From: Gammaproteobacteria bacterium
GTDB taxonomy: Bacteria > Pseudomonadota > Gammaproteobacteria > SZUA-152
Direction: 5' to 3'
DNA: 53,118 nucleotides
NCBI GenBank assembly: GCA_029882975.1
Contig: JAOUJW010000035.1
Span: forward strand, 1 to 53,118
The notes under the pieces: generated by a model
Seen by the model: the letters and a program-made list of their open reading frames with translations, nothing else
Told to the model about the DNA's origin: nothing
The model's database searches: none
Part shown: positions 4,701 through 30,321 of the stretch, one piece after another
Numbering within the stretch: the stretch's first letter is position 1
How the letters are laid out: each line of letters starts with the position of its first letter
Program-made: the position numbers and the translations under genes

Positions 4701-4878
4701 AGCGTAGCGTGTCATCCGTTACGAGTGTATTGGTCAACCCCAAACCTGATAGCTGATGATGGTTGTGCCACCGGCCAGGCGGCTCACCACCTTTTTTGTA
4801 ATAATCCTCAACCGCTAAATTTGTGTAGTAGTCACTTGCACCGTCTCCGGCTTTACCCATAGGGTATACGGTTAACAT
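1774..4878 (-). CDS. trwC: MobF conjugative relaxase-helicase, TrwC/TraI-like
   Basis: 1034 residues, close to R388 TrwC (966). The N-terminal relaxase has the tyrosine pairs Y17-Y18 and Y26-Y27 that attack DNA, and the metal-binding histidine triad H154, H165, H167 in HSTSRAQDPQLHTH. The C-terminal SF1 helicase has Walker A GDAGTGKST (442-450), Walker B VLDEAGM (511-517) and a late TTHKSQGST motif. It would nick oriT, stay covalently bound to the 5' end and unwind the strand for export. Its ATG overlaps the coupling-protein stop (ATGTTAA), giving the order RHH-coupling protein-relaxase, as in R388 trwABC. A MobF relaxase next to an MPF-I channel is not the usual IncI arrangement, which uses MobP. 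Confidence 0.95.
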   Translation of the reverse strand: MLTVYPMGKAGDGASDYYTNLAVEDYYKKGGEPPGRWHNHHQLSGLGLTNTLVTDDTLRSVLAGFHPITQAALTKNAGPEHFAGWDMTFSAPKSVSVVWAQADTDLRHSIQRVQDLAVERTLAFVEEHVAKTPRGAQGNEKEAVQRLIVAKFEHSTSRAQDPQLHTHCLVANIAQRFDGSWGCLEGRPFFQWKMALGAMYRAELADLLQTQLGLQVEQDSGSFRVKLVPKSVELEFSQRRVSIVNELEARGWTTAQGAQMISSATRERKAMVDRPQLFAQWQDRGRGLGFGPDEVARLFNPERRFAGNAVSISSVVPPREALKQLTEKRSTFLERDVFRLVAEKSQGVQSLASVKRDAIKILSHPDVVILSRTDGSRVEIQYSTTDMMELEKSMVQSAVKRQSDSNHRINPSVVAKAIASVQQNKGFELTSEQVRAVRGVCSESGGVVCIRGDAGTGKSTAMEAVRVAFESAGYRVVGNALQGKASTELSKSSGIKSQTLHSFLGDINRGDLQLGARTVVVLDEAGMVGSRQMSDLIRETENAGAKLLLVGDNKQLQPILAGGAFKAITNELGAFPVTEIMRQKNDWAKQAVTHFSQGDIAKAMGMYFERGRLHIMDNAVDSKLRLVSDWMEARQQRPDHSLCMIANTRAQVNDLNALARYRLKELGQLVNGTQVSTPGGDMELCVGDRLMTTRNSKYYKVANGTLATVAGLHTPSNERYWSVTLKLDSGRRQRMMLKDYNKFEYGYASTTHKSQGSTVHESFILISEDSMLNRELAYVANSRHTHDSHIYVDRESVQSFMEELRPTPGMLDYARDLAQTKHLELPSGYETSFMITREFLNQHSQKTLDYEQVAPELKELEGLFHAMKQSHQKDTTLDYDQRPGTYEYPEGLSPALPTSVDSPDSRAPLAYIFYEAERLARETGFDLTPGDAREAIKYLYDNGAIDRDTLYGKALECHRAAGDYLIDNEFDQFNLHHQSALDMIRYVGQMDAGAIALRQTNPNTLDLPDALTNSWEQGRQAYVRAQEPEPQFSR

Positions 4879-7440: not shown

Positions 7441-7610
7441 GTTTGCCGATTAATTAAAAAATAGCAAGGGATTTCAATGATAACAGGTGTTATCACTATC
7501 GCAGTAGTATCTATGGCCCTAAAAAAGAGTTGTACAGATAACACCCTGATAACAGTGTTATCACTATAAAAAGTCTATTAAACAATAAAATAGGGGATAG
7601 TGATAAAATG
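7441..7610 (+). other. oriT: Probable oriT with operator palindromes and candidate nic site
   Basis: Two near-identical palindromes lie 51 bp apart: TGATAACAGGTGTTATCA (7478-7495) and TGATAACAGTGTTATCA (7547-7563), each followed by CTAT. Extra half-sites are GATAACACC (7537-7545) and GATAGTGATAA (7596-7606). Between the palindromes, TATCT/ATGGCCC (nick between 7512 and 7513) resembles the R388 nic core TGTCT/ATAGCCC. Position directly upstream of trwA-like, trwB-like and trwC-like genes fits oriT. Cleavage here would send the + strand in with 7513 as its 5' end. The nic call is by eye from memory of R388. Confidence 0.65.
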
Positions 7611-7782: not shown

Positions 7783-7824
7783 GCACCGTGTTCTGGCCGG
7801 TTAGCCAAGCAAGAATGGAACTGG

Positions 7825-8108
7825 CAGGAACAGGAACCAGGAACCAGGAACCAGGATCAGGATCAGGAACCAGGAACAGGAACAGGATCAGGAACAGGAT
7901 CAGGAACAGGATCAGGATCAGGATCAGGAACCAGGAACCAGGATCAGGATCAGGAACCAGGAACAGGAACAGGAACAGGAACCAGGAACAGGAACAGGAA
8001 CAGGAACAGGATCAGGATCAGGAACAGGATCAGGATCAGGAACAGGAACAGGAACAGGATCAGGAACAGGAACAGGAACAGGATCAGGATCAGGATCAGG
8101 ATCAGGAA
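7825..8108 (+). repeat. 46-unit CAGGAA/CAGGAT tandem array
   Basis: The stretch parses without gaps into 46 units: 20 CAGGAA, 18 CAGGAT and 8 seven-base CAGGAAC. Total length is 284 bp, with no other variant. The seven-base units occur only among units 2-25, so they are confined to the left half. Every CAGGAT unit creates a GATC, giving 18 Dam sites in 284 bp. Open frames across it (for example 7788-8351) are products of the repeat, not genes. Confidence 0.97.
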
Positions 8109-8114
8109 CAATCC

Positions 8115-13743: not shown

Positions 13744-13763
13744 AATTCAAGCATGCTTGAATT
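13744..13763. promoter_or_regulatory. parS: parS-like palindrome, upstream of parA
   Basis: A 20-bp perfect palindrome with core TCAAGCATGCTTGA at 13748-13761, the same core as at 12121-12134. It lies between the toxin stop codon and parA, in the place of the parAB promoter, so ParB binding here could both partition and repress. Confidence 0.72.
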
Positions 13764-14143
13764 CAGACAAGAATGACGTTCCCCCCGTAGTTTTTTAATA
13801 TTTTATTGCGAGTTAATAAACGCATAGGCTCAACCGCACTTTGCGCCAACAACAAACGGTCGAACAAATCATCATGATACTCGGGCAATAGATCCACCTG
13901 TACTGTATGTGCTGCAGACAATGGCAGCGTTTCAAATCCGCTTTGTTTAATTGCATCCGCCAGCTCTTCCATATCAATATCAATCACACCATCGCGTCTT
14001 TTCCTGGAAATTTCCCACATATTCGCGGCGCTGACAAAAATATCATTGTCCGCATCCAAGATAATCTCTGTCACTTTTGCCGGTAGCTTCTTGTCATCCC
14101 GCAGCCACATCAACAAAACTGCTGTATCCAACAACACGCGCAT
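13763..14143 (-). CDS. PIN-domain toxin of a Phd-type toxin-antitoxin pair
   Basis: 126 residues of the VapC/PIN fold. Acidic residues are D6 in LLDTAVLL, E44 in NMWEIS and D95 in HDDLFDRLLLAQ. The family's last acidic position in the LLTRD motif is N113 here (LLTRNKIL), which may weaken or change metal binding. Family members are Mg-dependent RNases that stop translation when the antitoxin decays. It starts 2 bases after the antitoxin stop. Located between parAB and the second replication region, it serves as a plasmid stabilisation module. Confidence 0.87.
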   Translation of the reverse strand: MRVLLDTAVLLMWLRDDKKLPAKVTEIILDADNDIFVSAANMWEISRKRRDGVIDIDMEELADAIKQSGFETLPLSAAHTVQVDLLPEYHDDLFDRLLLAQSAVEPMRLLTRNKILKNYGGNVILV

Positions 14144-14145
14144 TT

Positions 14146-14346
14146 TTAGTTCGCATCCAGGTCCTGTTTAATCTTCACTTTGCCTTTCAGCAATCCCTTA
14201 GGCCGATGCACCAATTTTTTCACCGGCACAATACGGGCGCAGGGGACACCCCTGCGAGCAATAAACACTTCCTCGTTTTCTCTTTCTACATGTTCGACGA
14301 TTTTCGAAAGCGTCGATTTAGCATCGTGCATGTTGATTGTTTTCAT
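14146..14346 (-). CDS. Phd/YefM-type antitoxin
   Basis: 66 residues from the ATG at 14346. The frame stays open to 14406, but the extra codons cross the operator. The N-terminus MKTINMHDAKSTLSKIVEHV and the segment EVFIARRGVPCARIVPV are typical of Phd/YefM antitoxins: DNA-binding N-terminal half, toxin-binding basic C-terminal tail. It would neutralise the PIN toxin and repress the operon through the palindrome at 14367-14392. Confidence 0.88.
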   Translation of the reverse strand: MKTINMHDAKSTLSKIVEHVERENEEVFIARRGVPCARIVPVKKLVHRPKGLLKGKVKIKQDLDAN

Positions 14347-14366
14347 TGAAACGCCGAAACGATAAA

Positions 14367-14392
14367 AGATATAGCTAATCATAGCTATATCT
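14367..14392. promoter_or_regulatory. Operator of the toxin-antitoxin operon
   Basis: Perfect 10-bp inverted repeat AGATATAGCT (14367-14376) and AGCTATATCT (14383-14392) with a 6-bp spacer, 20 bp upstream of the antitoxin ATG. Phd-family antitoxins autoregulate through such sites. Confidence 0.7.
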
Positions 14393-15045
14393 CTATGGTG
14401 CGTCAACGCTCGGCCATGCTACGACACCTCAAACGGTGTTGCTGTTGAAACTAGACAAAACATGTCCTCAGATAAAAACAAAAAACCCGAAAGAATCCAC
14501 AGGCCAATCCGAATAGCAGAAAGAATGAGGTGCAACCCACGCATTGATTGGACGACCAAAAACGTATTGGCACGATGGTTGTACGGGAAGTAGTGCTGTA
14601 TTTCCACTGTATGGATTCGAACGGGTTTAAAGAATTCAGTATGGTATTGTGTGGCGAGTAGTGGTGTTTCAGTGAGGGATTTCTAACACGGGCAATGCAG
14701 AAAGCGGTTTGCTGGTGCGATAGCACCAGTATCCTTGTGATATGTCAAATTAACTGAATCTATTAAACAGATAAATACGAATCCGATTTATTCCAAATAA
14801 TACGCTAAAAAGAATGCGATTTATATTGATTAAAATACACACACTTATACACAATGCGATTTAATATCTTAGAAATAGTAACCATACAGGGTACAGAACA
14901 GCCGGGAAGGCAAATAGCATGGATAAAACCGCTATTACACGGCCTAATAGAGCGTATTGCCACACGCAATGTGGTCGAAGGGGAATATGAGGCCGTTAAC
15001 GAACGTTCGTTAAAATGGAAATAAGGAAGGGGTACAGGGATCGGG
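14393..15045. other. AT-rich region with a consensus DnaA box: possible second origin
   Basis: This region follows the RepA-like gene, which reads leftward and stops at 15046. A consensus DnaA box TTATACACA lies at 14845-14853, within an AT-rich stretch, and AATGCGATTTA occurs twice (about 14812-14822 and 14853-14863). In IncFII plasmids oriR lies just downstream of repA and starts with a DnaA box, so the arrangement fits. Open frames at 14419-14726 have no start signals or protein character. Confidence 0.4.
14854..15024 (+). CDS. Possible 56-residue small ORF, doubtful
   Basis: ATG at 14854 to TAA at 15022-15024 gives a basic peptide with the segment IAWIKPLLHGLIERI. No Shine-Dalgarno is visible and the start touches the DnaA box. 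It could be coincidental, or the remnant of a gene. No function assigned. Confidence 0.2.
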   Translation: MRFNILEIVTIQGTEQPGRQIAWIKPLLHGLIERIATRNVVEGEYEAVNERSLKWK

Positions 15046-16030: not shown

Positions 16031-16106
16031 CGTTTTCAGTCTAAAAAAATCTTCTGGTCTTTCTCCTGATTAAACAATAATCAACATATAGTGTGATTAC
16101 AGAAAT

Positions 16107-16137
16107 TTGACACACAATATATTGTGTTAAATACAAT
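16107..16137 (+). promoter_or_regulatory. rep promoter with embedded palindromic operator
   Basis: -35 TTGACA (16107-16112) and -10-like TACAAT (16132-16137), 19 bp apart. The spacer is occupied by the perfect 16-bp palindrome ACACAATATATTGTGT (16112-16127), the right place for Rep-dimer autorepression. Confidence 0.55.
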
Positions 16138-16159
16138 AGTCAAGAAAATCGGTGAGATG

Positions 16160-16317
16160 CTACAAAAAGGGACTGTTGTCCACAGATATGACTACAAAAA
16201 AGGACTGCTTTCCACAGATAGCGCTACAAAAAAGGACTGTTGTCCACAGATATGACTACAAAAAAGGACTGCTTTCCACAGGGGTAGAGAACGACAAAAC
16301 AGCTACAAAAAAGGACT
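16160..16317 (+). repeat. oriV: Iterons of the Rep_3 origin (five copies, 32-bp phasing)
   Basis: CTACAAAAAAGGACT repeats start at 16160 (one mismatch), 16192, 16224, 16256 and 16303. The first four are exactly 32 bp apart, three helical turns. Each of the first four is followed by a DnaA-box-like TTGTCCACA or a TTTCCACAG. Units 1 and 3 share one version and units 2 and 4 the other, so the array is a doubled 64-bp unit. These are binding sites for the Rep encoded just downstream. Confidence 0.9.
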
Positions 16318-16395
16318 ATCAACGCGCATCAAACTGTGCTTATATGACTACATACGCTAAACAATGTAGCTGTATAGTCATGGAGGCCTGGCCCG

Positions 16396-17076
16396 ATGGG
16401 TTATCTTAGCGAAGTCATTGAAGGCACGGTTACTAAAAGTAACGATTTAATTGAAGCTAGCTATAAGCTCACACTGAACGAGCAGCGGCTAATACTGTCG
16501 GCCATCTCAACGATCGATCCCGATGAGCCCCTGCCAAAGGTTTTAACATTTACCGCAAAGACCTTTGCAGAAGTTTTCAATCTTTCTGATAACAAAGCCT
16601 ACGAAGCATTATCCGAAGCAGCGGACAGGTTATTCGACCGGGACATCAAAACCTATGACGGTCGTAACGAAGAGCGTATACGCTGGGTCAGCCGGGTTAA
16701 ATATATGAAAGGGGAGGGCACAGTATCCGTGTCGTTCACGGAGTGGGTGGCGCCGTATTTGACGAAATTAAACAGCCGTTTTACATCCTATAAGCTCAAA
16801 AATATTGGCTCCTTGCGAAGTGTGTATGCGATCCGCCTCTATGAGATGGTTATGCAGTACAAAGATGAACACGGGTTCACTATCGGCGTCAACGAACTGC
16901 GGGAGCGATTTGAGATTCAAAAAAAATACGAGCGGTTCTCAAACTTGCGTGCACGGGTCATCAATCCAGCACTAAAAGAATTAAAGGACAACTCCGGCTT
17001 GGTAATCAATTTCAAACCGTTCAAAGAGGGACGCAATATCACTCATTTGAAATTTAGCTATACGCTGCCGGATTAA
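16396..17076 (+). CDS. rep: Rep_3-family replication initiator
   Basis: 226 residues, slightly shorter than RepE/Pi (about 250-300). GGAGG lies 9 bases before the ATG at 16396. It starts with TKSNDLIEASYKLTLNEQRLIL, the hallmark entry of Rep_3 initiators, then winged-helix domain 1 (to about 120). Domain 2 follows with SLRSVYAIRLYEMVMQY and FEIQKKYERFSNLRARVINPALKEL. It binds the iterons as a monomer to open the origin and its own promoter palindrome as a dimer. Iterons lie both upstream (16160-16317) and downstream (17115-17233), so the gene is embedded in its origin. Confidence 0.95.
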   Translation: MGYLSEVIEGTVTKSNDLIEASYKLTLNEQRLILSAISTIDPDEPLPKVLTFTAKTFAEVFNLSDNKAYEALSEAADRLFDRDIKTYDGRNEERIRWVSRVKYMKGEGTVSVSFTEWVAPYLTKLNSRFTSYKLKNIGSLRSVYAIRLYEMVMQYKDEHGFTIGVNELRERFEIQKKYERFSNLRARVINPALKELKDNSGLVINFKPFKEGRNITHLKFSYTLPD

Positions 17077-17114
17077 AAAAGGCGGTTGGAAGCGTATCTA
17101 AAACCCCGAATATG

Positions 17115-17312
17115 ACTACAAAAAAGGACTAGCCTTAAAAAATACGTATAACTTATTGATAAATATAAGTAATAAAACTAAGATACAGCTACACTCGTTC
17201 ATTGGATATATGATATGCCTACAAAAAAGGACTTGTTCAACCGGATTCTTAGGGTAAAACCCTCAAAACACACAAATAACACTAAACGCGCATAATAATG
17301 TAATATTATGCG
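17115..17312 (+). repeat. Downstream iterons and an AT-rich inverted repeat
   Basis: Two exact CTACAAAAAAGGACT copies lie at 17115-17129 and 17219-17233, after the rep stop. An inverted repeat CGCATAATA (17289-17297) with TATTATGCG (17304-17312) follows. The stretch between is AT-rich and suited to strand opening, or the extra iterons may handcuff and limit copy number. No gene is seen from 17077 to 17406. Confidence 0.8.
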
Positions 17313-17406
17313 GGGGTTGCATTAATCATCGTCATGTTTTTTCTCCTATCAGGAATACTGGAACCGCCAGCGCGGGATTTTTAAAATCAACTAAATTGTA
17401 CCACAT

Positions 17407-17853
17407 TTAAACGGCATCACGGCGCAAAGACAACATTTCCGACACTATCGCCCGGCGACTATCCTCTGGCAGCTCCGCCCAAGGCAGTTCCACGACAGCG
17501 CCCCACGGAACACCCGCATTGGACAAAATCAATTTCTTTGACCGCACCGGCAGGTGCGGCCAAAGGACGTCAATCGGCACGAGCTCATCCACTGCCGTAC
17601 TCCAAATCCGACACCAGTTACGCTCCGGTGCAATAAACTTCTTGCCAATAGGCGGATAAAAATAACTGTCCTCACCCATGACCAACGCGCAGGCCTCATT
17701 CATTTCCCAACACTCAACGCCTTCCTTTTCCATAATCGCGCGACAAACCGAAAAGTAGTCCGCTAACGTGATCACCCCGTGCGACAAACGCAGGTCCGAC
17801 GTATAAATCTCACTCCTGTACTGCTCGGCAATTCGTTCAAAATTTTCCATCAT
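17407..17853 (-). CDS. Unknown 148-residue plasmid protein
   Basis: Starts at one of two adjacent ATG codons (17853 or 17850) preceded by AAAGGA. The protein is soluble, with an N-terminal helical part (ENFERIAEQYRSEIYTS) and a tryptophan-rich centre (NWCRIWSTAV, LWPHLPVRSKKLI). A closing segment PWAELPEDSRRAIVSEML suggests a compact helical domain. No signal peptide or membrane segment. It follows the first DUF3768 gene, separated by a terminator hairpin whose T-run reaches its Shine-Dalgarno. Function unknown; it belongs to the accessory maintenance block. Confidence 0.55.
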   Translation of the reverse strand: MMENFERIAEQYRSEIYTSDLRLSHGVITLADYFSVCRAIMEKEGVECWEMNEACALVMGEDSYFYPPIGKKFIAPERNWCRIWSTAVDELVPIDVLWPHLPVRSKKLILSNAGVPWGAVVELPWAELPEDSRRAIVSEMLSLRRDAV

Positions 17854-17861
17854 CAAATCCT

Positions 17862-17889
17862 TTAAAAAAGAGCGCCGGTAAAGGCGCTC
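17862..17889 (-). terminator. Intrinsic terminator between DUF3768 copy 1 and the next gene
   Basis: GAGCGCC (17870-17876) and GGCGCTC (17883-17889) with a 6-base loop, then a minus-strand T-run (17869-17864). It ends about 10 bp before the next start codon. Confidence 0.75.
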
Positions 17890-17903
17890 AAGGGAGGGCA
17901 GAA

Positions 17904-18248
17904 CTAATACCCCATCGCTTTCTTAACACTCAAAACACGCACCGCGTTTTCATCCCCAGGGTCCTCGCACCGGGCGGTCATGTCCTGGTTGTAATAATCA
18001 ATCTGAAACAAAAACCGCTCACCGTTATGCGCAAACACCCCGAAATCGTGTTCCTCGCGAGGATCAAAACACGGCCTAAAATCATCAAACTCCCGCACTT
18101 TATTCAGCACTTCAAATAACACCGGTTCCGGCAACGCCTCCACACCGGGCGATACATTCACCGAACCACCTTTAAACGACCGACGAAACTGATCATTCAA
18201 CAACGCCACCCGAATCATCCGAAACTGAGAAATCTTCTTCGCACCCAT
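17904..18248 (-). CDS. DUF3768 protein, copy 1
   Basis: 114 residues from the ATG at 18248, which has GGAGGG 7 bases upstream; the longer frame to 18332 runs into the non-coding element. It contains IRVALLNDQFRRSF, then SPGVEALPEPVLFEVL, the signature EEHDFGVFAHNGERFLFQIDYYN and a C-terminal VRVLSVKKAMGY. This is the DUF3768 pattern as I recall it, a small protein common on plasmids and integrative elements, function unknown. It is the paralogue of 21137-21481 (same length, same flanking hairpin and upstream element). Confidence 0.85.
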   Translation of the reverse strand: MGAKKISQFRMIRVALLNDQFRRSFKGGSVNVSPGVEALPEPVLFEVLNKVREFDDFRPCFDPREEHDFGVFAHNGERFLFQIDYYNQDMTARCEDPGDENAVRVLSVKKAMGY

Positions 18249-18287
18249 CCGTACACCCTCCATGTCTTGTCTTTTAATAGAATTTCG

Positions 18288-18680
18288 AACATCGCCCCCT
18301 GGGGGCAAAGGGAAAGAAGGGTTAAACCGCACAGGTTCTGGCGTAGGCCAGGGAAGGCCCTGACCTGCACAAGCGGAATGTTTTTGATGAAGCGCGGAAG
18401 GTTAGGGAGGCGTCCCTTGCCGCAGCCAGGTTCTGTGCTACCCTGAAATCCCGCCCAGGGGGAGATGAGACAAACAGCGTGCGCAGCACAGCCGACAGAG
18501 GGTTTTGACTTTAAGCTTTAAGCGCTTTGACAAGGATGTCTAAGCGCAACGGGCAGGGAAGGGCAGGCGGTATCGAGCGGGAACGACAGCCACAGCCACA
18601 ACGCCAGTGACCGACCGATACCGCCTGCCCGATGCCCGGAGTGAAGCGAGCGAGTGCTTTCAACGAGCTGGCGTAGCGAC
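18288..18680 (+). ncRNA. Structured non-coding element, copy 1
   Basis: A 393-bp GC-rich segment closely matching 21528-21919. Conserved potential stems include GCCCCC/GGGGGC (18294-18306), CAGGT/ACCTG, AGGGA/TCCCT, CTGTGCT/AGCACAG and a 15-bp stem GGGCAGGCGGTATCG (18561-18575) with CGATACCGCCTGCCC (18616-18630). Differences between copies inside two stems turn T-A into T-G, keeping pairs only in a + strand RNA. Frames across it on the minus strand change mainly by amino-acid replacement, so it is not coding. The remainder up to 18838 shows nothing further. Whether it is an independent RNA or a leader is unknown. Confidence 0.55.
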
Positions 18681-18838
18681 AAAAAACAAACAGCGCAACC
18701 GCCCACCGGTTGCCTCCGATACCGCCCGGGTTTTCACACCCTATTGCCCACACGCCGCGCTTAGTCAACCAGCGCTTTGTGTGGACAAAGCGTGCAAAAA
18801 CCAACAGCTTAACTGCCTGTTAGAAGACAACCAGAAAA

Positions 18839-19171
18839 CTATTCGCTTAACACATGCCGTGCTTTGCGTATCCAAAAATACAAATGCACCGGACCTGAGG
18901 CACTGACCAGGTCTAAAAACTGATCCAATTCAGCGTAGCTCATGGTCCCGTCGTTGCCTTTTTCACGCAAGCATTGAAACGCCGCCTGGTCGGCGTCGTC
19001 CCTGCAACGCCAATCGTAGTCATCGAAAACTTCCAACACATCGTTGGCCTGGTCATCCAGCGCCGCACTGTGGACCAATTCTTCTAAAATGACTTTCATC
19101 AGGGAATTTTGTTCCGATACGGTCAAGGACGAAGTGTCCCGGTCCGCGATGGTCTGAATTTCTTTTGTCAT
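18839..19171 (-). CDS. Unknown acidic 110-residue protein
   Basis: The ATG at 19171 has GGAG 6 bases upstream; an in-frame GTG at 19174 is less likely. The protein is acidic and helical: SEQNSLMKVILEELVHSAAL, then DDQANDVLEVFDDYDWRC, and a C-terminal LYFWIRKARHVLSE. Its acidity might mimic DNA or bind basic proteins, but that is speculation. It follows the large ParB-like gene by about 70 bp with a terminator hairpin between. Family not recognised. Confidence 0.55.
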   Translation of the reverse strand: MTKEIQTIADRDTSSLTVSEQNSLMKVILEELVHSAALDDQANDVLEVFDDYDWRCRDDADQAAFQCLREKGNDGTMSYAELDQFLDLVSASGPVHLYFWIRKARHVLSE

Positions 19172-19210
19172 CACTCACTCCATTAATTATTTGCGTACAG
19201 ACTCAAAGAT

Positions 19211-19230
19211 ACCTCCCCGAAAGGGGAGGT
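19211..19230 (-). terminator. Hairpin downstream of the large ParB-like gene
   Basis: ACCTCCCC (19211-19218) and GGGGAGGT (19223-19230) closed by a 4-base loop, 8 perfect pairs, just after the stop at 19242. The T-run on the minus strand is weak (ATCTTTG). It also covers a GGAGGT that could be read on the plus strand. Confidence 0.6.
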
Positions 19231-19241
19231 CATGCCCAAAA

Positions 19242-21071
19242 TTACTCAAACCTCTGCGGCATCCAGGACTCCCGGATCGAGGCCAGATTCTCAGGCAACC
19301 CATCCCCATCGGTATTGAAAAAGTCGTGGAAAAATTGAACCAGATCCTTTTTCTTGTCCCTCTTGTGATCGTCTAGCCAGTCATCGCCAAACCATTGCTG
19401 GCCCTGGGCCAGCAAATCCGCTGCACTCAGACGTTTGAAAAAATTGTCGCCATTAGGCCGCCAATAATCCGAGTACGGAATATTCAACAAACCGGCGACG
19501 TGTTCACCCAGGGGCGCACGTTCTGCGTCGGACAACCCTATCTCCAACAACTGGGCCACCGTGAACGCGACCAGCTGCCCCTTCAATTTCGGCGCTAACG
19601 CCCGAAACGCCTCAAAGCTCTCGACCGGCTCATCGGCGTTAAGCCATTGTGTTGACAACGACAGCAGATCCTCAGCCATGGCCTTGGCCGCTTTCGTTTG
19701 TTTCAGATCATCCAAGCTGGTGTTTTGTTCACAAACCTCCGCCCGGAAATTGATCACAGCGTCATAATAGCCGTGCTTATCCAGCACTCGCTTGCACACG
19801 CTGTAGTGCAACAGATCCGTGGCCAGCTTGGCATCGCCGCACAATGCCGCCTGCACAATCTGCTGGCGATACAAGGCCAGATCCGACAAGAGGGCAGCGG
19901 ACAACGAACTGGCCGGAGGGAAATCACTGGCCGCACAGGCCTGGCTCTGCTGATTCTTACTGGCCGCTTTGCTCATCAGCCCGCGCAACACCAGCAGTTT
20001 ACCTTCACTGTCTACCGTCACGATGCATTGGCTCTGCGCGATCTGTTCATCCGTGTATTGCTGGTAGGTGTCTTTCTTCGCTTCCAGCTCATCCATTCGT
20101 TTTTCCAGTGCCTCGAACTGTGCGTATTTTTCATCGGTCCAGTCCTCGGCATCATCCTCCATCGCACCCATAGCGGCATCTACTTGCGTGATCTCGGTCT
20201 CAAGTGCGGCGGGTACGCCCACGAATTCAGGCTCAGCCCGAAACAGCCCGGCACCCGCATGGCAACCTTCTAGCGACACCTCCACACGCGCCCAGCCTTC
20301 TTTTTTCACGTTAGCCGACACTTTGTTCAGCTTCTTAGTGGCCAGCTCGTTAAGCAAGGGCAGGTCGTGCAAATACGTCCGTGACTCAAACAAATCACTG
20401 CTGACAACGCCACCGGCTTTCTTATACGCCGCCAGGCCCACAAACCGGCAAATGGGGGAATCACTGGTTTCCGCACCATTGAGCAAGTAGCTTCGGATAC
20501 TGTGCGGGTACACATGGCCGCCCAGTTCCTTATAACAATGAAGCTGCTTTTCATGGTCTGCCTCCACCGTAAACGCCATGACTTCCTCAATGCCTAGTTT
20601 ACCGTTGCGGTAATCCTCGACAATGGCCGGAGCCACGTCCGCCAGGCGCAGGCGTTTTTTAACGTGGGCAGTCGCAATCCCGAATTCCTGCGCAATGTGT
20701 TTCTCGCTCATGCCCCGGTTTGCCATCGCCTGGTACGCCATAAACTCATCAGCCGGGTGCATCGGTTCATGCAGATTCTCAGACAACGATACGGCAGTCA
20801 CATCGTCATCCGCACTGACCCGGCAGGGCAGTTCAATATTTTCATCCCAAATGCCTTTATCGATCAGCACACCGGCGGCGGCAAAACGCCGCCCGCCGGC
20901 GATGACTTCAAACACGTTTTTCTTGCCAGTCGGTGCCACCACTAAATTCTGCAAGATCCCCCGCGCCTGCATCGACGCCAGCAATTGCTTGTCGCTATGC
21001 TTGCTGGCTGAAACCACCCGCACATTGTCTTCAGAAATCGTTAACTGGGAATACGGAATATTCTTGATCAT
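19242..21071 (-). CDS. Large ParB-like (ParB/Srx N-terminal domain) plasmid protein
   Basis: 609 residues from the ATG at 21071 (GGAGG 5 bases upstream). The N-terminal ParB-like domain has LTISEDNVRVV, a VIAGGRRFAAA box at the place of GERRxRA (about 59-69), and ENLHEPMHPADEF. A helix-turn-helix EKHIAQEFGIATAHVKKRLRL follows (about 128-148). The long C-terminal part (200-609) has a coiled-coil stretch around 300-340 and an acidic tail. Such long ParB-like proteins sit beside DUF3768, DUF932 and methyltransferase genes on plasmids and are not the segregation ParB. Their role is unclear; CTP-dependent DNA clamping is possible. Confidence 0.85.
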   Translation of the reverse strand: MIKNIPYSQLTISEDNVRVVSASKHSDKQLLASMQARGILQNLVVAPTGKKNVFEVIAGGRRFAAAGVLIDKGIWDENIELPCRVSADDDVTAVSLSENLHEPMHPADEFMAYQAMANRGMSEKHIAQEFGIATAHVKKRLRLADVAPAIVEDYRNGKLGIEEVMAFTVEADHEKQLHCYKELGGHVYPHSIRSYLLNGAETSDSPICRFVGLAAYKKAGGVVSSDLFESRTYLHDLPLLNELATKKLNKVSANVKKEGWARVEVSLEGCHAGAGLFRAEPEFVGVPAALETEITQVDAAMGAMEDDAEDWTDEKYAQFEALEKRMDELEAKKDTYQQYTDEQIAQSQCIVTVDSEGKLLVLRGLMSKAASKNQQSQACAASDFPPASSLSAALLSDLALYRQQIVQAALCGDAKLATDLLHYSVCKRVLDKHGYYDAVINFRAEVCEQNTSLDDLKQTKAAKAMAEDLLSLSTQWLNADEPVESFEAFRALAPKLKGQLVAFTVAQLLEIGLSDAERAPLGEHVAGLLNIPYSDYWRPNGDNFFKRLSAADLLAQGQQWFGDDWLDDHKRDKKKDLVQFFHDFFNTDGDGLPENLASIRESWMPQRFE

Positions 21072-21104
21072 AAAAACCTCCAATGAATTATCAATATTGA
21101 AAAT

Positions 21105-21130
21105 GAAAAAGAGCGCCGCGAACGGCGCTC
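21105..21130 (-). terminator. Intrinsic terminator of DUF3768 copy 2
   Basis: GAGCGCCG (21111-21118) and CGGCGCTC (21123-21130), a TTCG loop on the minus strand, followed by TTTTT (21110-21106). Equivalent to 17862-17889. Confidence 0.85.
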
Positions 21131-21136
21131 CCTGCG

Positions 21137-21481
21137 CTAGTACTCCAAAGCCGTCATAATGGTGAGTACGCGCACCGTGACCTCCGGGTTCGCCGGATCG
21201 GCGGAACGGTACTCCATGCCTTTGTCGTAGTAGTCGATTTTGAAAAAATACCGCTTACCTGCGTGTTCCACACAGCCAAAATCATGCTCGCCGTAGGGAT
21301 CATCCTCAGAATCAAAGGCATCGAAAGTCATTACCTTTTCCAGGACGGCGCTCTGGTCTGCCTCGGGTAAATCGTAAATCCCTGGCGTCAATAACACCTG
21401 GCCACCCAAAAACGAGCGGCGAAGCGAATCGTTTAGCGCCGCAATACGGTTTAGCTGAACTGCCGTTACTGCTTCACACAT
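21137..21481 (-). CDS. DUF3768 protein, copy 2
   Basis: 114 residues; GGAGGT lies 8 bases before the ATG at 21481. Pattern: LNRIAALNDSLRRSF, LTPGIYDLPEADQSAVLEK, GEHDFGCVEHAGKRYFFKIDYYD, VRVLTIMTALEY. It is paralogous to 17904-18248, with the same key positions, and is closer to the family consensus as I recall it (KIDYYDKGM, VLTIM). It is followed by the large ParB-like gene. Function unknown. Confidence 0.88.
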   Translation of the reverse strand: MCEAVTAVQLNRIAALNDSLRRSFLGGQVLLTPGIYDLPEADQSAVLEKVMTFDAFDSEDDPYGEHDFGCVEHAGKRYFFKIDYYDKGMEYRSADPANPEVTVRVLTIMTALEY

Positions 21482-21527
21482 GTTTAATTACCTCCAACGG
21501 AATTAAGTTGTTATAAAAGCTCTTATA

Positions 21528-21919
21528 AACATCGCCCCCTGGGGGCAAAGGGAAGAAGGGGTAACGGCACAGGTTCTGATGGAAGCAAGGGAAGGCCCTG
21601 GCCTGCACAAGCGAAGTGTATTTAAACGAAGCGCGGAAGGTTAGGGAGGCGTCCCTTGCTGGAATCAGGTTCTGTGCTACCCTGTAATCCCGCCCAGGGG
21701 GAGATGAGACAAACAGCGTGCGCAGCACAGCCGACAGAGGGTTTTGAACTTAAGCATTAAGCGCTTTGACAAGGATGTCTAAGCGCAACGGGCAGGGAAG
21801 GGCAGGCGGTATCGAGAGGGAACGGCAGCACCAGCCACAACGCCAGTGACCGACCGGTACCGCCTGCCCGATGCCCCAAGCGACACGAGCGAGTGTTGTC
21901 TACGAGCTGGTAGAGCGAC
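21528..21919 (+). ncRNA. Structured non-coding element, copy 2
   Basis: Copy of 18288-18680, also just upstream of a DUF3768 start on the minus strand. The 15-bp stem is GGGCAGGCGGTATCG (21800-21814) with CGGTACCGCCTGCCC (21855-21869); one T-A pair of copy 1 is T-G here. The CAGGT/ACCTG stem likewise becomes CAGGT/GCCTG. Loops vary more than stems. Frames at 21757-22042 are not considered coding. Confidence 0.55.
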
Positions 21920-22010
21920 CACAAAAAGCCGCAGCTGCAACGAGCAGCTGCCCGCCAAAGCCCACCACCGGCCAGCGGGGCGCGAAACTCGCACCCCGCG
22001 CAGCACGATA

Positions 22011-23645
22011 TCAACCTGCAGAAAACGCCAGCCGCAACACATTATCCGCCGTCAAGGACAAATTTGAATCAAAGGCCGCAACCGCCTCAGCCTCATCAAT
22101 CAACAACTCATCACTGGCTTGCTTTGCCGATTTCAACCAGCCTTTAAGCCGCCCGAATTCAACATTCAGCTTGCAAATAAAAGACTGATTGAACTTAATA
22201 TGCAGATTGCCATTCATGAATGCTCGCACCTGCATCAAACAAACTGTTTTACCGCTGCGATGGCAATCAAAGTCGATACGCTTGTTGGACTCCCATTGGT
22301 ACTGCCTGGCGTTACAGTGGCCGGTTTCAAAACCTAAATTGTTCGCAATGGTCAGAATATCATTCACCAAATGAAACGCACGCTCTTCCAGGCCATTAAA
22401 CCGGTTACGATCATAGGACCACTGTGAGGTACAAATACCACCGGTGCGGTGCAGAACAATGCGATAGTCCAATCCGTACCGGTCCAGATCCTTAGGTGTG
22501 GTGCAATAACGCCATTGCTCATCACCGAACGTATTCTGATTCGACACGTACAGCTGAATACTGGCTTTTTCTGTCATGCGTTCCACCAGGGCCACCAGCT
22601 GGTCATCAAAATACACATTGGCATTCTTGAGCACCCAAATCAAAACGGCATAGGCATTGGAAGCGGTATAATCCACATGGGTATGCGCGGTTAAATGTGA
22701 CAGCATCGCTTCACGGGTTTTGTGCGTGAGCCGTTCCGTGATCTTGGACAAGTGATTAAATAACTCTTTCCAGTAGGTATCTTTAAGACCTTCTATTTTC
22801 TGCCGCAACGCCGCGCGCAGGCCTTCGAGGTTCACATCCAGCTCTTTTAATATCACGGGGTCAATCGCTTCCAGCGATTGATAATTACCAATGAGATTGT
22901 CCAAATCCCGCCGGTACAGTTTTTCCAAAGCGGTCACAATATCGGAACCGGCCACCAGTGCTTGATTCACCCGCTCGCTGACGGTTGCCTCCCGCGCAGA
23001 ATCCAAATCATACTTACTGGCTTCCGTGTTGTTGATCTCAATAGCAAAATTCTCTTCAAACCAAAGGGAAAAAGGATCAACCTTAATCTGAGAGCTATAG
23101 CGGCTGTTGTAGCACAAACGCACCCGCACAATATCAACTCTAGCCCGCGCCTGTCGTTCCGCATGAAGAAAATCGAACTGGCCAATGACATCCGCTTCGG
23201 CGCTTCGCGCTGCTAAGGCCTCCGCGATCGCGGGGTCATCGGACCACCGGGAAGGGACCACGAAATAGACGAAAGGCGCATTCGCTTCTCGAATGATTTT
23301 AAGCATCCAGAGTGAAAATTCGCTATAAGGCGGGTTACAGAAAACGAGATCGACTTTTTTGTCGATCAATGTTTGTTCTGCGAACTCAGTACCAACGATG
23401 AAAATGGATCGGTCCATCGCATCGAGCAATGGACGGCTTTTCTCAATGGCATACCGGTCGCCATCGGTTAACGCCTGCAACACCCGGCCATCACCCGCAC
23501 CACAATCCAAAATACTGGGATGATCAAAGTCCCCGGAGAAATCCTTTTTCACCGCATCAATCATCTGCGGCGTGGTTGGATACCATTCAAAATCCTGCCC
23601 CGTTGATTTCGCCAGTTCTAAAAGTTGTTGAGCCTGTGCATTCAT
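22011..23645 (-). CDS. N6-adenine DNA methyltransferase with DUF4942-like C-terminal domain
   Basis: 544 residues; GGGGAG lies 8 bases before the ATG at 23645. SAM-binding motif I is ILDCGAGDGR (45-54) and catalytic motif IV is CNPPYSEF (103-110), preceded by LVF. The C-terminal half (about 230-530, with RIDFDCHRSGKT near the end) resembles the DUF4942 region attached to such plasmid methyltransferases. It would methylate adenines in plasmid and recipient DNA, probably to protect the incoming plasmid from restriction. No restriction partner is adjacent, so it looks like an orphan enzyme. It is preceded by a terminator-like hairpin and a GC-rich non-coding element. Confidence 0.83.
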   Translation of the reverse strand: MNAQAQQLLELAKSTGQDFEWYPTTPQMIDAVKKDFSGDFDHPSILDCGAGDGRVLQALTDGDRYAIEKSRPLLDAMDRSIFIVGTEFAEQTLIDKKVDLVFCNPPYSEFSLWMLKIIREANAPFVYFVVPSRWSDDPAIAEALAARSAEADVIGQFDFLHAERQARARVDIVRVRLCYNSRYSSQIKVDPFSLWFEENFAIEINNTEASKYDLDSAREATVSERVNQALVAGSDIVTALEKLYRRDLDNLIGNYQSLEAIDPVILKELDVNLEGLRAALRQKIEGLKDTYWKELFNHLSKITERLTHKTREAMLSHLTAHTHVDYTASNAYAVLIWVLKNANVYFDDQLVALVERMTEKASIQLYVSNQNTFGDEQWRYCTTPKDLDRYGLDYRIVLHRTGGICTSQWSYDRNRFNGLEERAFHLVNDILTIANNLGFETGHCNARQYQWESNKRIDFDCHRSGKTVCLMQVRAFMNGNLHIKFNQSFICKLNVEFGRLKGWLKSAKQASDELLIDEAEAVAAFDSNLSLTADNVLRLAFSAG

Positions 23646-23666
23646 TAAAAATACTCCCCATTGTTA

Positions 23667-23698
23667 TTAAAAGAGCGCAGCGACTGCGTCCTGCGCTC
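23667..23698 (-). terminator. Terminator-like hairpin before the methyltransferase gene
   Basis: GAGCGCAG (23673-23680) and CTGCGCTC (23691-23698) with a 10-base loop, then TTTT on the minus strand. No coding gene lies upstream on this strand, so it ends either a small RNA from 23699-23930 or acts as an attenuator. Confidence 0.65.
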
Positions 23699-23930
23699 CT
23701 GTCCTGCTGGCGAAGCACGGGGGTAGCAAGTGCAAGGGAAGGGTGCGGGAAGGAGGGAGCTGGCGCGGCCCGCAGCGCAGCGAGGACACGGGCGACCGGA
23801 TGACACGGCTGACCTTGCAGGCGCGAGGGGTGGCACCCCTTAGCATCAGACAGCGATGGAAGCCCGCAGGGCCAAGACAGGCCTTAACTGGCTTGGTTCA
23901 CGACAGCGCGGTGCGCAGCAGTCTGCTAGA
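23699..23930 (-). ncRNA. GC-rich structured element, possible small RNA
   Basis: A 232-bp non-coding stretch, much richer in GC than its neighbours. It includes a perfect hairpin AGGGGTGGCACCCCT (about 23825-23839) and other short complementarities, and on the minus strand it ends at the terminator above. The segment CTTGGTTCACGACAGC is familiar to me from GC-rich intergenic regions of proteobacterial integrative elements; this is recollection only. No convincing ORF: frames here lack start signals. Confidence 0.35.
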
Positions 23931-24377
23931 ATGAAAACCCATTACACAAACACAACGACAAAAAAGGACTCACGGGTGATCTTGTCCCTCAACCTCGCCA
24001 CAGAATCCGGCACACCCGGCTGGGTCAGTCTGGAACCACCGGCAAAAGCCGTGTACCTGAAAACAGCCACCAACGAAAACATCAAAGCATTCTTAGGGAA
24101 TATCGAAGACAACGGCCTGCCCAAAGGCTACGCCGTGAATATCAATGCGTTAACCAAAGCACCCTGGCAATTCGCCAAATCGCTGACCTTGAAAGCCAGC
24201 GGATTCACAATACAAGCCATCGATGGGGGACAATACCACCAACAAATCCCACTCGACAAACAACTGACCTACCGAGGCATAGTCCACGAAGAGAAACTGT
24301 ACGCCTACCTGGTTGTGGAAAGATCAACAGATGGCCGGTTTTTCTATTACCCGGTATTGGCAAACCGAAAAATATAG
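23931..24377 (+). CDS. Unknown 148-residue protein with an iteron-like 5' end
   Basis: The ATG at 23931 is preferred over upstream in-frame starts inside the GC-rich element. The predicted protein looks like a small soluble domain of beta strands (SRVILSLNLA, GWVSLEPPAKAVYL, FTIQAIDGGQYHQQIP, KLYAYLVVERS, RFFYYPVLANRKI). Codons 9-14 (TTTKKD) are encoded by CGACAAAAAAGGACT (23956-23970), which differs by one base from the Rep iterons. No family recognised. It stands alone on the + strand next to the methyltransferase. Confidence 0.5.
   Translation: MKTHYTNTTTKKDSRVILSLNLATESGTPGWVSLEPPAKAVYLKTATNENIKAFLGNIEDNGLPKGYAVNINALTKAPWQFAKSLTLKASGFTIQAIDGGQYHQQIPLDKQLTYRGIVHEEKLYAYLVVERSTDGRFFYYPVLANRKI
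23956..23970 (+). repeat. Isolated iteron-like site inside the 5' end of a gene
   Basis: CGACAAAAAAGGACT matches 14 of 15 bases of the iteron at 16192 and elsewhere, nearly 7 kb from the origin. It could bind Rep and couple this gene to copy number. Confidence 0.55.
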
Positions 24378-27798: not shown

Positions 27799-30321
27799 AT
27801 GAATAAAACCAAGGTATTTGAATTCTTAAGCAACGCAACAATACCAGTTTTGTTTGCGGGTGCTGGAGTATCTGCAAAAGCTGGGTTACCGACGTGGGGT
27901 ACTCTACTAAAAGAATTAGCGGAGCAAACAAGACAATATAATACATTAACTAGACAAATGATGGTAGAAAGAATAGCAGAACATGATCTAGTTAATGCTG
28001 CTACTTACTTTTTTTCATGTCCCGGTATGACAATAAATAGCAAATTTATGGCAATACGATCTATTCTTGGCTCATACGATTCCAACGGTCTACAAGACGT
28101 AATGAAAATACCATTTAGATCTGTCGTGACCACCAATTATGATAGAGCATTACATGATGCATACAGTTATGTCAAAAGGAGATCATCGCTAGAATTTCAT
28201 GGCGATAAACTTAATCAAGCAGAGTATGAACGGGATTTCTATATAGCTCGAATACATGGCGCTATAGAAGACTACGATAGCATAGTAATGAGCGAGGAGC
28301 ACTATAGAAATATAAATAACAACGATAAGTATTGTGACTTTCTAACTCACATGTTTACTACAACGAATATTCTTTTTGTTGGCTTTTCATTTCTTGACCC
28401 GGCAATTAAGAATGTTCTAAATATCATATACGACAAATATGGCGGTATTCACAACGGGAGCCACCTCGCTTTAGTACCGAATAATGCTCAAGCAGAGCTT
28501 GTTTCTGAATTTGATAAATTTTCAATAGAAAAAATTCATTACAACTCAGAGAATAATCACAAACAAATGTGGGATTGTTTGCGAGAGTGCGCCAATCGAC
28601 TATCTCAAGGTAGTTTTGATTTCGGCTCGTACAAACTAATTCCATTCAAAAAAGCAGAACTTTATTTGTCGTCTTGTTATGCCAGAACAAAATTAGGTCC
28701 GCAAGTTATGCCTTTAAAAGATGCAATAATTGAAGGTATAATCAGCCAGTTGATAATTTCATCAGGCATTGGTGCTGCACGATCAGAAATATATTGTAAG
28801 ATCCATGAAAGTTTAGTTATATCACAAAAAGAGTCAAAGGAACTTGTGGACAGGGCTATTTTTAAATTGACTTCCGAGGGATTATGTCAGGAAAAAGACA
28901 ACAGATTTGTGTGGATTGGCAAAGACGATAGTATTTTTAATGAATCTTTAGAAAAGTTAATAAATGGAGTTATCGATAGATTTATTGTCCGCTATGGTGG
29001 ACAAGATAAACAAGAATACCGTGATTGTTTGCTAAAAGTATTTGAAAAACTGATACTCTACCGCGGCTGGGATTTGGGAGCCGCCTATGCTAAATATGAA
29101 ACTCCTGATCAAATAAATATTAGACCTATTTTCAACGAAGAAACACCCAATATCTCCAACCATACTAAACAAAGTATATTTGAGTCATTGGAGGACCTAC
29201 TAAACAATCCTAGCACTACCGAATCTAGAGTCCTGGCGGAATTAGGAAGAATTTCTTTCGGTTTAGAGGTGGTATTTCAGTCGCCGCACGATACATTATT
29301 TCACTCATTGACACTACCTGATGCAATATATTTGGATGCCAATGTACTAATGCCAGCTATAACAAAGGGACATCCATATTACCAAATATATGTGGATACG
29401 ATCGAAAGCCTAGTAAACGCAACGTCTGAATCAGGTAAAAAGTTAAATATTTACGCATATGGTGAGTATCTTAAAGAAACCGTACGTCACAAAAATTATG
29501 CAGAAACCGAAATCGAATCAATGGGGGATCGAGTTATAGATATGCTAAGAGACGAAGTTGTACTATTTGGTCATAGCAGTCTAAATGTATTTATTGCTGG
29601 TTACTTGAACTACGTTGCGAGAGACAAAAAACTTACTTTTAATCAGTATTTGAAGGAAAATGCACCATATAATTCTATCAAGTCAATGGTCCCATTTATA
29701 AAAAAGAAAGGTATAGAAACTATCGAAGACAAAAATACGGTCGATAGAAATGCCGATTATCCAGGCATACTCAACGAATTGGAAAAAGCTTATGTCGATG
29801 ATTCTGAAAAAAGTGCCTCACTAATACAACATGATGCAAAAATGCTGTCAATGCTTAACTATGACTTACAAGCTGGTAAATCTTCTCTTTTTATTACCGC
29901 TGATAACAAATTGAAAAAGAAAATTGAGAAAACTAAATACTCCTCTTTATCTAACTATATGATGAGCCATATTGGGTTAAGCCAACTTGTAGATTTGTTA
30001 GTCGGAACAAAAGTACATTCAGGAATCACAAAGTTATTGTGGTCTACACAAGTTTCGAGCGACACCGAAAAAGTCAAGAACTTACTAATCAGCAAAGCCT
30101 TACATCACTACGATGAAGGTTTAGCCATGTCTCTTCCAGACAAAGTCGAAAGTGTGGCAGAGGATATAGTTATCGAGTTGAATAAGAAAAACTTGGATTT
30201 AAGTACAAACGACGCTGGTGACCGAGAGAAAATATTTGATACTATTGGATCGTTTGAAGAAAAGTTTTATGAAGGGATGCGAGCTGCTATTGAAAAAAAA
30301 CGACTGGAGAATAACGAATAA
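27799..30321 (+). CDS. SIR2 - winged helix - PIN fusion, candidate defence effector
   Basis: 840 residues. The N-terminal SIR2-like domain (about 10-260) has GAGVSA (21-26), TTNYD (111-115), H153 in RIHGAIED and GFSFLD (195-200), the features of SIR2-type NAD-hydrolysing defence proteins. A winged-helix-like region follows (about 320-375). The C-terminal half holds a PIN-like nuclease: D513 in YLDANVL, E556/E560, D679 in IQHDAK and D702 in FITAD, on the expected strands. The gene is much more AT-rich than its neighbours and lies between a serine recombinase and a tyrosine recombinase. No Shine-Dalgarno is obvious. NAD depletion plus RNA cleavage would suit abortive infection; neither activity is shown by sequence alone. 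Confidence 0.8.
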   Translation: MNKTKVFEFLSNATIPVLFAGAGVSAKAGLPTWGTLLKELAEQTRQYNTLTRQMMVERIAEHDLVNAATYFFSCPGMTINSKFMAIRSILGSYDSNGLQDVMKIPFRSVVTTNYDRALHDAYSYVKRRSSLEFHGDKLNQAEYERDFYIARIHGAIEDYDSIVMSEEHYRNINNNDKYCDFLTHMFTTTNILFVGFSFLDPAIKNVLNIIYDKYGGIHNGSHLALVPNNAQAELVSEFDKFSIEKIHYNSENNHKQMWDCLRECANRLSQGSFDFGSYKLIPFKKAELYLSSCYARTKLGPQVMPLKDAIIEGIISQLIISSGIGAARSEIYCKIHESLVISQKESKELVDRAIFKLTSEGLCQEKDNRFVWIGKDDSIFNESLEKLINGVIDRFIVRYGGQDKQEYRDCLLKVFEKLILYRGWDLGAAYAKYETPDQINIRPIFNEETPNISNHTKQSIFESLEDLLNNPSTTESRVLAELGRISFGLEVVFQSPHDTLFHSLTLPDAIYLDANVLMPAITKGHPYYQIYVDTIESLVNATSESGKKLNIYAYGEYLKETVRHKNYAETEIESMGDRVIDMLRDEVVLFGHSSLNVFIAGYLNYVARDKKLTFNQYLKENAPYNSIKSMVPFIKKKGIETIEDKNTVDRNADYPGILNELEKAYVDDSEKSASLIQHDAKMLSMLNYDLQAGKSSLFITADNKLKKKIEKTKYSSLSNYMMSHIGLSQLVDLLVGTKVHSGITKLLWSTQVSSDTEKVKNLLISKALHHYDEGLAMSLPDKVESVAEDIVIELNKKNLDLSTNDAGDREKIFDTIGSFEEKFYEGMRAAIEKKRLENNE

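Follow-up and report, generated by a model that had tools for sequence, protein, structure and literature searches.

A conserved, folded non-coding element on a putative conjugative plasmid belongs to a family that has an invariant apical core and often precedes anti-restriction genes

We analyzed a 53-kb contig (53,118 nucleotides; JAOUJW010000035.1, contig C35, here called the window) from the 5.18-Mb draft genome of a gammaproteobacterium of the SZUA-152 lineage (GCA_029882975.1). The window is the whole contig, and it looks like a conjugative plasmid because it carries genes for a TrwC-type relaxase, a TrwB-type coupling protein, type IVB secretion, ParA/ParB, and a Rep3 initiator. It contains two copies, A and B, of an element of about 395 bp that is large, conserved, folded, and non-coding. 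The element belongs to a wider family with an invariant apical core. Outside a Treponema type, family members often lie at a regular distance from the start codon of a divergent gene, often have anti-restriction and leading-region genes as neighbors, on that side only, and mostly have the core on the strand opposite the relaxase gene. We see about an even chance that the element is a folded control site of single-stranded DNA on the transferred strand, driving the expression of early genes.

Copies A (18286 to 18684) and B (21526 to 21923), with limits taken from nhmmer and BLAST (for A also from the structure) and the folded strand taken as +, were 90% identical (BLAST, query positions 9 to 407). 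A repeat search placed them in register at 18288 to 18681 and 21528 to 21920, in blocks of 91%, 84%, and 91% identity. Each copy lies directly upstream of a − strand DUF3768 gene (Pfam E values of 1.1e-18 and 2.2e-31). The distance between core and start codon is 119 nt for DUF3768 gene A (17904 to 18246), where the ribosome-binding site guided the choice of start codon, and 122 nt for DUF3768 gene B (21137 to 21481). Terminator-like − strand hairpins close both genes (17889 to 17870 and 21133 to 21108). These results confirm the observation made in a sequence-only reading of this DNA, which had described two parallel segments, each with a terminator hairpin, a DUF3768 gene, and a GC-rich element. 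A third copy (72% identity) occurs in the same setting on contig C36, which is plasmid-like and has its own relaxase. The genome has three DUF3768 genes, each of which adjoins an element. A more divergent fourth copy, also on C36, lies 125 nt ahead of a ParB-like gene.

The element consists of an irregular hairpin of about 178 nt (domain 1; 18289 to 18466 in A and 21529 to 21705 in B) with a symmetric GTT/GTT internal loop and the apical core, followed by two further hairpins. The core, CTGCACAAGCG..AGCGCGGAAG, spans 18365 to 18400 in copy A and 21603 to 21639 in copy B. Hairpin 2 (alignment columns 271 to 296) lies at 18522 to 18547 and 21761 to 21786, and the domain 3 hairpin (columns 300 to 397) at 18551 to 18637 and 21790 to 21876. 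RNAalifold predicted 117 pairs in the alignment of A, B, and the third copy (C), 21 of them doubly changed in at least one of the three copies. On the + strand the consensus energy was −241 kcal/mol, versus −150 ± 6 kcal/mol in 60 column-shuffled alignments, none of which was as low. The T-A to T-G stem changes noticed in the sequence-only reading are present in this alignment, where column pair 322/378 is T-A, T-G, and C-G and pair 40/168 is A-T or G-T.

A wider alignment also supports the structure. Across 31 relatives, 95.9% of the cells at predicted pairs were standard, versus 42 to 59% when the partner was slid by 1 to 3 columns, and 51 cells were changed on both sides, versus 15.5 in shuffles. 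Helix 4, which adjoins the core, has one pair that appears as G-C, C-G, G-U, U-A, and A-U and another that appears as C-G, U-A, and G-C. When the relatives' consensus was compared with 60 column shuffles, none was as low with RNA energies and 4 were as low with DNA energies. The large structured RNA proposed earlier is upheld as a folded non-coding element, and its RNA nature is unproven.

No Rfam family reached its gathering threshold at the element in the window, at 18 relatives' loci, or at 7 further loci that included F and part of ColIb-P9, in agreement with the earlier statement that no named RNA family was recognized. A permissive Rfam search of the module returned only four chance-level microRNA matches. 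The same kind of search at 6 loci gave low-scoring matches within or close to two of the elements (L151, 5477 to 5570; L148, 6147 to 6264), with E values of 0.9 or worse and far under the cutoffs. We also considered a CsrA/RsmA sponge, using the CsrA consensus. The pattern ACANGGANGT is kept in hairpin 2 of copies A to C, yet it occurs 3 times in the window versus 1.27 expected, and 14 of 100 shuffles reached 3 occurrences; the equivalent hairpin of locus L020 has no GGA. We dropped the sponge because the pattern count was near chance and because of this L020 hairpin.

By plain sequence similarity the element appeared confined to its own genome. Copy A had no BLAST match in plasmids or phages, and BLAST among 96 relatives and 24 genomes of the order found the element only in its own genome, apart from a chance match of 27 nt at L005 with no further similarity. 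When 369 genomes of the class were searched with a covariance model trained on domain 1 of copies A, B, and C alone, 4 gave matches: the element's own genome, one clear relative (E = 2.8e-6), and two marginal cases (E = 0.03 to 0.04). The marginal matches, at L016 and L017, were attributed to chance, as was a match at L013 from a separate search, which lies inside a reading frame of 1,091 amino acids. In the clear relative, the gene directly after the element, on the opposite strand, encodes ArdA (PF07275, E = 1.8e-47). Building a covariance model from the copies, as had been suggested, thus led to the wider family.

The core, defined as CTGCACAAGCG, 0 to 20 nt, and AGCGCGGAAG, was found in at least 116 stretches of genome contigs, and the core family is larger than counted because this number is a lower bound. 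Among the 80 titles listed were Pseudomonadota, Acidobacteriota, Planctomycetota, Verrucomicrobiota, Spirochaetota, and Bacillota, with many metagenome-assembled genomes. Six viral contigs also carry the core. A 58-nt core consensus matched 158 places in 87 plasmid records, mostly from Sphingobium and other Alphaproteobacteria; of the 60 plasmid matches listed, 54 had no annotated feature beneath them, 4 were in unannotated records, and 2 overlapped a gene. As a check on background, 12 genomes chosen for holding the core gave 34 matches, versus none for the reversed pattern. In the 369 genomes of the class, the core was present in 4 genomes (6 places, 3 of them in its own genome), versus 1 place for the control. 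The model of the window copies recovered 12 elements in 7 of 8 relatives' loci (best E = 2.6e-7; the rest, 0.002 to 0.07) and none in the eighth, L155. We set aside instances whose flank was shorter than 90 nt, copies identical to one another, and duplicate loci of the window itself. Of the 128 instances that remained, 32 had a flank of the GGGGAGGGG type, 45 had one of the Treponema type, and 51 had neither. As far as our sources show, the wider family seems to be undescribed: no title or abstract opening describes the core, and no paper with both core strings turned up, in a partial search that leaves absence from print unproven. No paper on DUF3768 turned up.

For the neighboring genes we considered the 83 copies without a Treponema-type flank, of which at least those at L040 and L074 nevertheless come from Treponema. 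Seven had no scorable left neighbor. Among the nearest proteins on the divergent side of the other 76 copies, 21 had an ArdC N-terminal domain and 9 a zincin-like metallopeptidase domain (two counts whose overlap was not separated), 5 were weak matches to Tc-38, 4 were ArdA, 4 were DUF3768 (3 from this genome), 2 were DNA methylases, and 2 were IrrE-like peptidases. RadC, ParB, DUF932, and DUF6884 occurred once each, and unrelated proteins such as histidyl-tRNA synthetase were also present. On the other side of the element, no family exceeded 2 among 80 proteins. Genes on the divergent side pointed away from the element in 56 of 76 cases, and on the other side 45 of 80 genes lay on the strand of those outward-pointing genes. 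The elements thus precede anti-defense or establishment genes, as Frpo/ssi elements do.

The spacing was also regular. In 22 of 32 mapped copies (those of annotated plasmids, the window's genome, and L020), the start codon of the divergent gene lay 105 to 127 nt from the CTGCAC of the core, and in 25 it lay within 200 nt. Start codons were taken from annotation or, for unannotated genes, picked by hand, and an ArdC-family gene annotated across the second copy of L150 was left unscored. Two relatives found after the spacing rule had been set were counted as fitting it, with RadC at 114 nt and a ParD antitoxin at 149 nt. At L020 (8130 to 8180), L004 (2740 to 2800), and L056, the stretch separating the element from ardA or DUF3768 contains, on the gene strand, a terminator-like G-C hairpin with a T run after it.

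The core also had a consistent polarity. Among 20 copies from 8 plasmids or contigs, 18 had the core on the opposite strand from the relaxase or MobC gene: the window (2 of 2), C36 (2 of 2), NZ_CP081004 (2 of 2), NC_015582 (2 of 2), NZ_CP018222 (3 of 3 in the stretch seen), NC_007616 (1 of 1), NZ_CP013266 (3 of 4), and NZ_CP033874 (3 of 4, relative to MobC). The tally covers plasmids with a relaxase or MobC gene in the stretch and leaves out a partial match at position 17576 of L158. One exception is a + strand copy (L154, 10336 to 10394) that stands right before MobC of NZ_CP033874. In R388- and RP4-type systems, the origin of transfer (oriT) lies upstream of the relaxase operon. If this also holds here, the core strand would be the transferred strand, since it is opposite the relaxase gene. 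It is important to note that polarity is not independent of the neighbor-gene result, because the early genes are themselves co-oriented. Leaving Treponema out, 28 of 30 copies shared a strand within 11 multicopy stretches. Known leading regions have a similar layout: in F, ssb, ParB, and psiB run toward traM, and in ColIb-P9 ssb, ParB, psiB, and ardA all run in one direction.

The folded strand is likely the + strand. In copies A, B, and C, this strand was favored beyond what composition predicts, with RNA energies (whole element, 0 of 60 shuffles; domain 1, 1 of 100) and with DNA energies (6 of 60 and 0 of 100, respectively). The − strand folds of these copies were likewise beyond chance (0 of 60). 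At 15 predicted pairs in the 31 relatives, we counted 36 G-U or U-G cells versus 7 A-C or C-A cells; within helix 4 the counts were 30 versus 2, with 22 from a single pair. These counts come from related sequences and from a structure predicted on the + strand. In 37 Treponema-type copies, the preference for the + strand was weak (7 of 60 and 10 of 60 column shuffles).

We propose that the plasmid would enter the recipient as a single + strand, on which the element would fold. A host factor would then recognize the fold and the invariant apical core; RNA polymerase is the simplest candidate, and the primosome is a possible one. The invariance of the core suggests a conserved reader. RNA synthesis would start on the incoming strand and run toward oriT, so that DUF3768, the ParB-like protein, and equivalent anti-restriction genes would be expressed before the second strand is made. 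DUF3768 would in that case be an anti-defense protein. More tentatively, and with less confidence than an even chance, the family may be a previously undescribed kind of structured nucleic acid that spans several phyla, shares a single invariant apical core, and is recognized in single-stranded DNA form by a universal host factor. In conjugative elements of Proteobacteria, Acidobacteria, and perhaps Planctomycetes, it could serve as a noncanonical single-strand switch for ArdC, ArdA, DUF3768, and related anti-defense genes, and in Treponema it could be dispersed and have another role.

Several results weigh against a single-stranded control site. Seven of the 32 mapped copies had no divergent start codon within 200 nt (an IS3 element adjoins one of these, and an annotated ArdC-family gene encloses another), and 2 of the 20 copies broke the relaxase rule. 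No −35/−10 boxes were found: the region from 16100 to 24200 had 7 promoter-like sites versus 7.4 expected, none of them inside A or B, and the conserved parts are G-rich and have no TATAAT-like block. Terminator-like sites on the − strand occur within the elements (18490 to 18478, 21729 to 21717, and 21552 to 21532), and a gene-strand transcript would have to pass them. The core is absent from the stretches of F (L021) and ColIb-P9 (L022 and L023) compared, where the model of the window copies had no match at an E value of 1 or less. In the 31 relatives the strand preference did not reach significance (36 of 60 and 18 of 60 shuffles). A strand test based on single-sequence energies gave the + strand the lower energy in 110 versus 12 of 128 instances with DNA energies and in 105 versus 16 with RNA energies, and it is no evidence because dinucleotide shuffles gave an equal bias. 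Finally, Treponema genomes carry as many as 10 copies of the core each, on both strands, and the Treponema-type copies share no neighbor family in the way that others share ArdC. Two readings would fit: the core serves another purpose in Treponema, or the family predates conjugation and extends beyond it. At Treponema-type loci (for instance L043, L060, and L111), the core sits on long AT-rich hairpins with outer repeats resembling TCGAGTTTT/AAAACTCGA, and at L060 and L111 the inner hairpin seems by eye to be inverted relative to its flanks.

The sequence-only reading had favored a structured RNA made from the + strand and transcribed away from DUF3768. Such an RNA would overlap the leader of the early gene and act either in trans or as an antisense regulator of that gene. 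The strong conserved structure with its compensatory changes, the excess of G-U cells in the relatives, and the + strand preference of copies A to C would all agree with it, and the internal loops and invariant apical loop may resemble RNA tertiary motifs. However, the same wobble pairs can be explained by single-stranded DNA, which tolerates G-T pairs equally, because the + strand is the putative transferred strand. Transcription in this direction was unsupported, because the module holds no + strand terminator-like site (the only one between 16100 and 24200 is at 23348) and because the position of the element is tied to the divergent gene and to nothing on its other side. We therefore regard this RNA as unlikely, and of the earlier interpretation we retain the structured element, with the + strand RNA unproven. 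We think a leader RNA on the − strand somewhat less likely still. As a riboswitch or attenuator in the 5′ untranslated region of the early genes, it would account for the regular distance to the start codon and for the − strand folds of A to C. It would also suit the terminator-like − strand sites inside the elements and beside them (18695 to 18713, at the far edge of A; 21931 to 21951, between the DUF4942 gene and B), the hairpin and T run right before the gene at L004, L020, and L056, and a promoter-like − strand site beyond element B (22068 to 22041) in a region whose total of such sites is no higher than chance. The wobble cells point the other way, to the + strand on which the structure was predicted, as does the + strand preference of A to C beyond composition, and by eye most of 29 leaders have no such terminator-like hairpin and T run before the gene.

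We weighed two further explanations. The element could be a single-stranded priming or assembly site for complementary-strand synthesis (an ssi or primosome assembly site) instead of a promoter, which would suit its place on the putative transferred strand in 18 of 20 copies, the several copies per plasmid, and a spread across phyla that may point to primase, PriA, or another conserved host protein as the reader; a spacing of 105 to 127 nt to an anti-restriction start codon would then be needless, and we consider this improbable. Least probable is a dispersed repeat, or mobile palindrome, that is intergenic by chance. Treponema copies are indeed scattered over both strands and, by eye, have outer inverted repeats, but outside the Treponema-type copies the neighbors, spacing, and orientation are nonrandom, and the regular spacing to the divergent start codon disfavors this explanation for the plasmid copies.

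The proposed control site has its closest parallel in the Frpo/ssi elements, which are long, folded leading-region elements read from the transferred strand upstream of ssb, ParB, and anti-restriction genes. Several copies per plasmid occur in both families, for Frpo/ssi in F and ColIb-P9. The ParB-like protein of the window is a distant homologue of the F leading-region ParB (27% identity, E = 2e-35). In contrast to Frpo/ssi, no −35/−10 boxes were found in the fold of the window element, and its family has an invariant apical core and, among the titles listed, spans six phyla. Further, the F region before ssb forms one long hairpin (z score, −7.1), whereas the window element is multidomain (z score for copy B, −4.65). 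We did not class the element with the Frpo family because of the missing boxes and the lack of similarity to F and ColIb-P9. A 2024 survey of leading regions describes Frpo-like promoters as widespread ahead of ssb and other leading-region genes, and it reports an anti-CRISPR test in which strand and position mattered (PMC11541004). According to this and another source, published Frpo/ssi searches rely on similarity to known Frpo/ssi elements or on −35/−10 boxes (PMC11541004).

Two motifs described as RNA were also compared. Like our element, the STAXI motif (RF01728) occurs near SSB, antirestriction, and DNA-handling genes. It is a repeated pseudoknot, and no STAXI match was found at the window or at the relatives' loci searched with Rfam. 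Its authors weighed a role as single-stranded DNA and favored RNA, and the radC motif (RF01754) is listed in the same paper as a proteobacterial RNA with a probable cis-regulatory role (PMC2864571). Some copies of our element also precede radC. The radC motif model was over its cutoff in none of 9 records or genomes and gave 12 weak matches in 5 records, none coinciding with known element places, in a comparison in which one of the four element places in NZ_CP018222 was unlocated.

The genes named here around the two elements lie on the − strand. The unit behind element B also includes the ParB-like gene (19242 to 21083) and, at its end, a hypothetical gene without a Pfam match (18839 to 19174); another hypothetical gene without a Pfam match follows DUF3768 gene A (17407 to 17856). 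Ahead of element B is a DUF4942 gene (22011 to 23645; E = 1.3e-8) with homologues in 33 plasmid records, mainly from Vibrio and Shewanella. The relaxase gene, which sets transfer polarity, is of the TrwC type (MOBF; 1774 to 4878, − strand; PF08751, E = 1.6e-72) and adjoins a TrwB/TraD coupling protein gene (4872 to 7148, − strand; PF10412, E = 9.2e-67). Upstream of the relaxase operon, inverted repeats clustered at 7478 to 7606 (no strand assigned) form a candidate oriT, and just past it lies a long low-complexity tract of AGGAAC/AGGATC units (7820 to 8110). Iteron-like repeats of 32 bp (TACAAAAAAGGACT) precede the Rep3 gene at 16159 to 16281, with single copies at 17102 and 23942. Two small neighboring − strand genes (13763 to 14406) resemble a PIN-domain toxin and its antitoxin. 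A + strand gene (27799 to 30318), flanked by a resolvase and a tyrosine integrase, encodes an 840-amino-acid protein with a SIR2-like domain (PF13289) and is possibly a plasmid-borne defense gene.

Single-stranded promoters are already known from F- and IncI-type plasmids. If the family described here acts as one, early anti-defense expression would extend to plasmid groups that the published searches would miss, for example plasmids of Sphingobium, Paracoccus, and Bradyrhizobium. One could then use the core as a simple probe to find leading regions and new anti-defense genes, DUF3768 among them, and the element makes it directly testable how polymerase or the primosome could recognize folded single-stranded DNA without promoter boxes.

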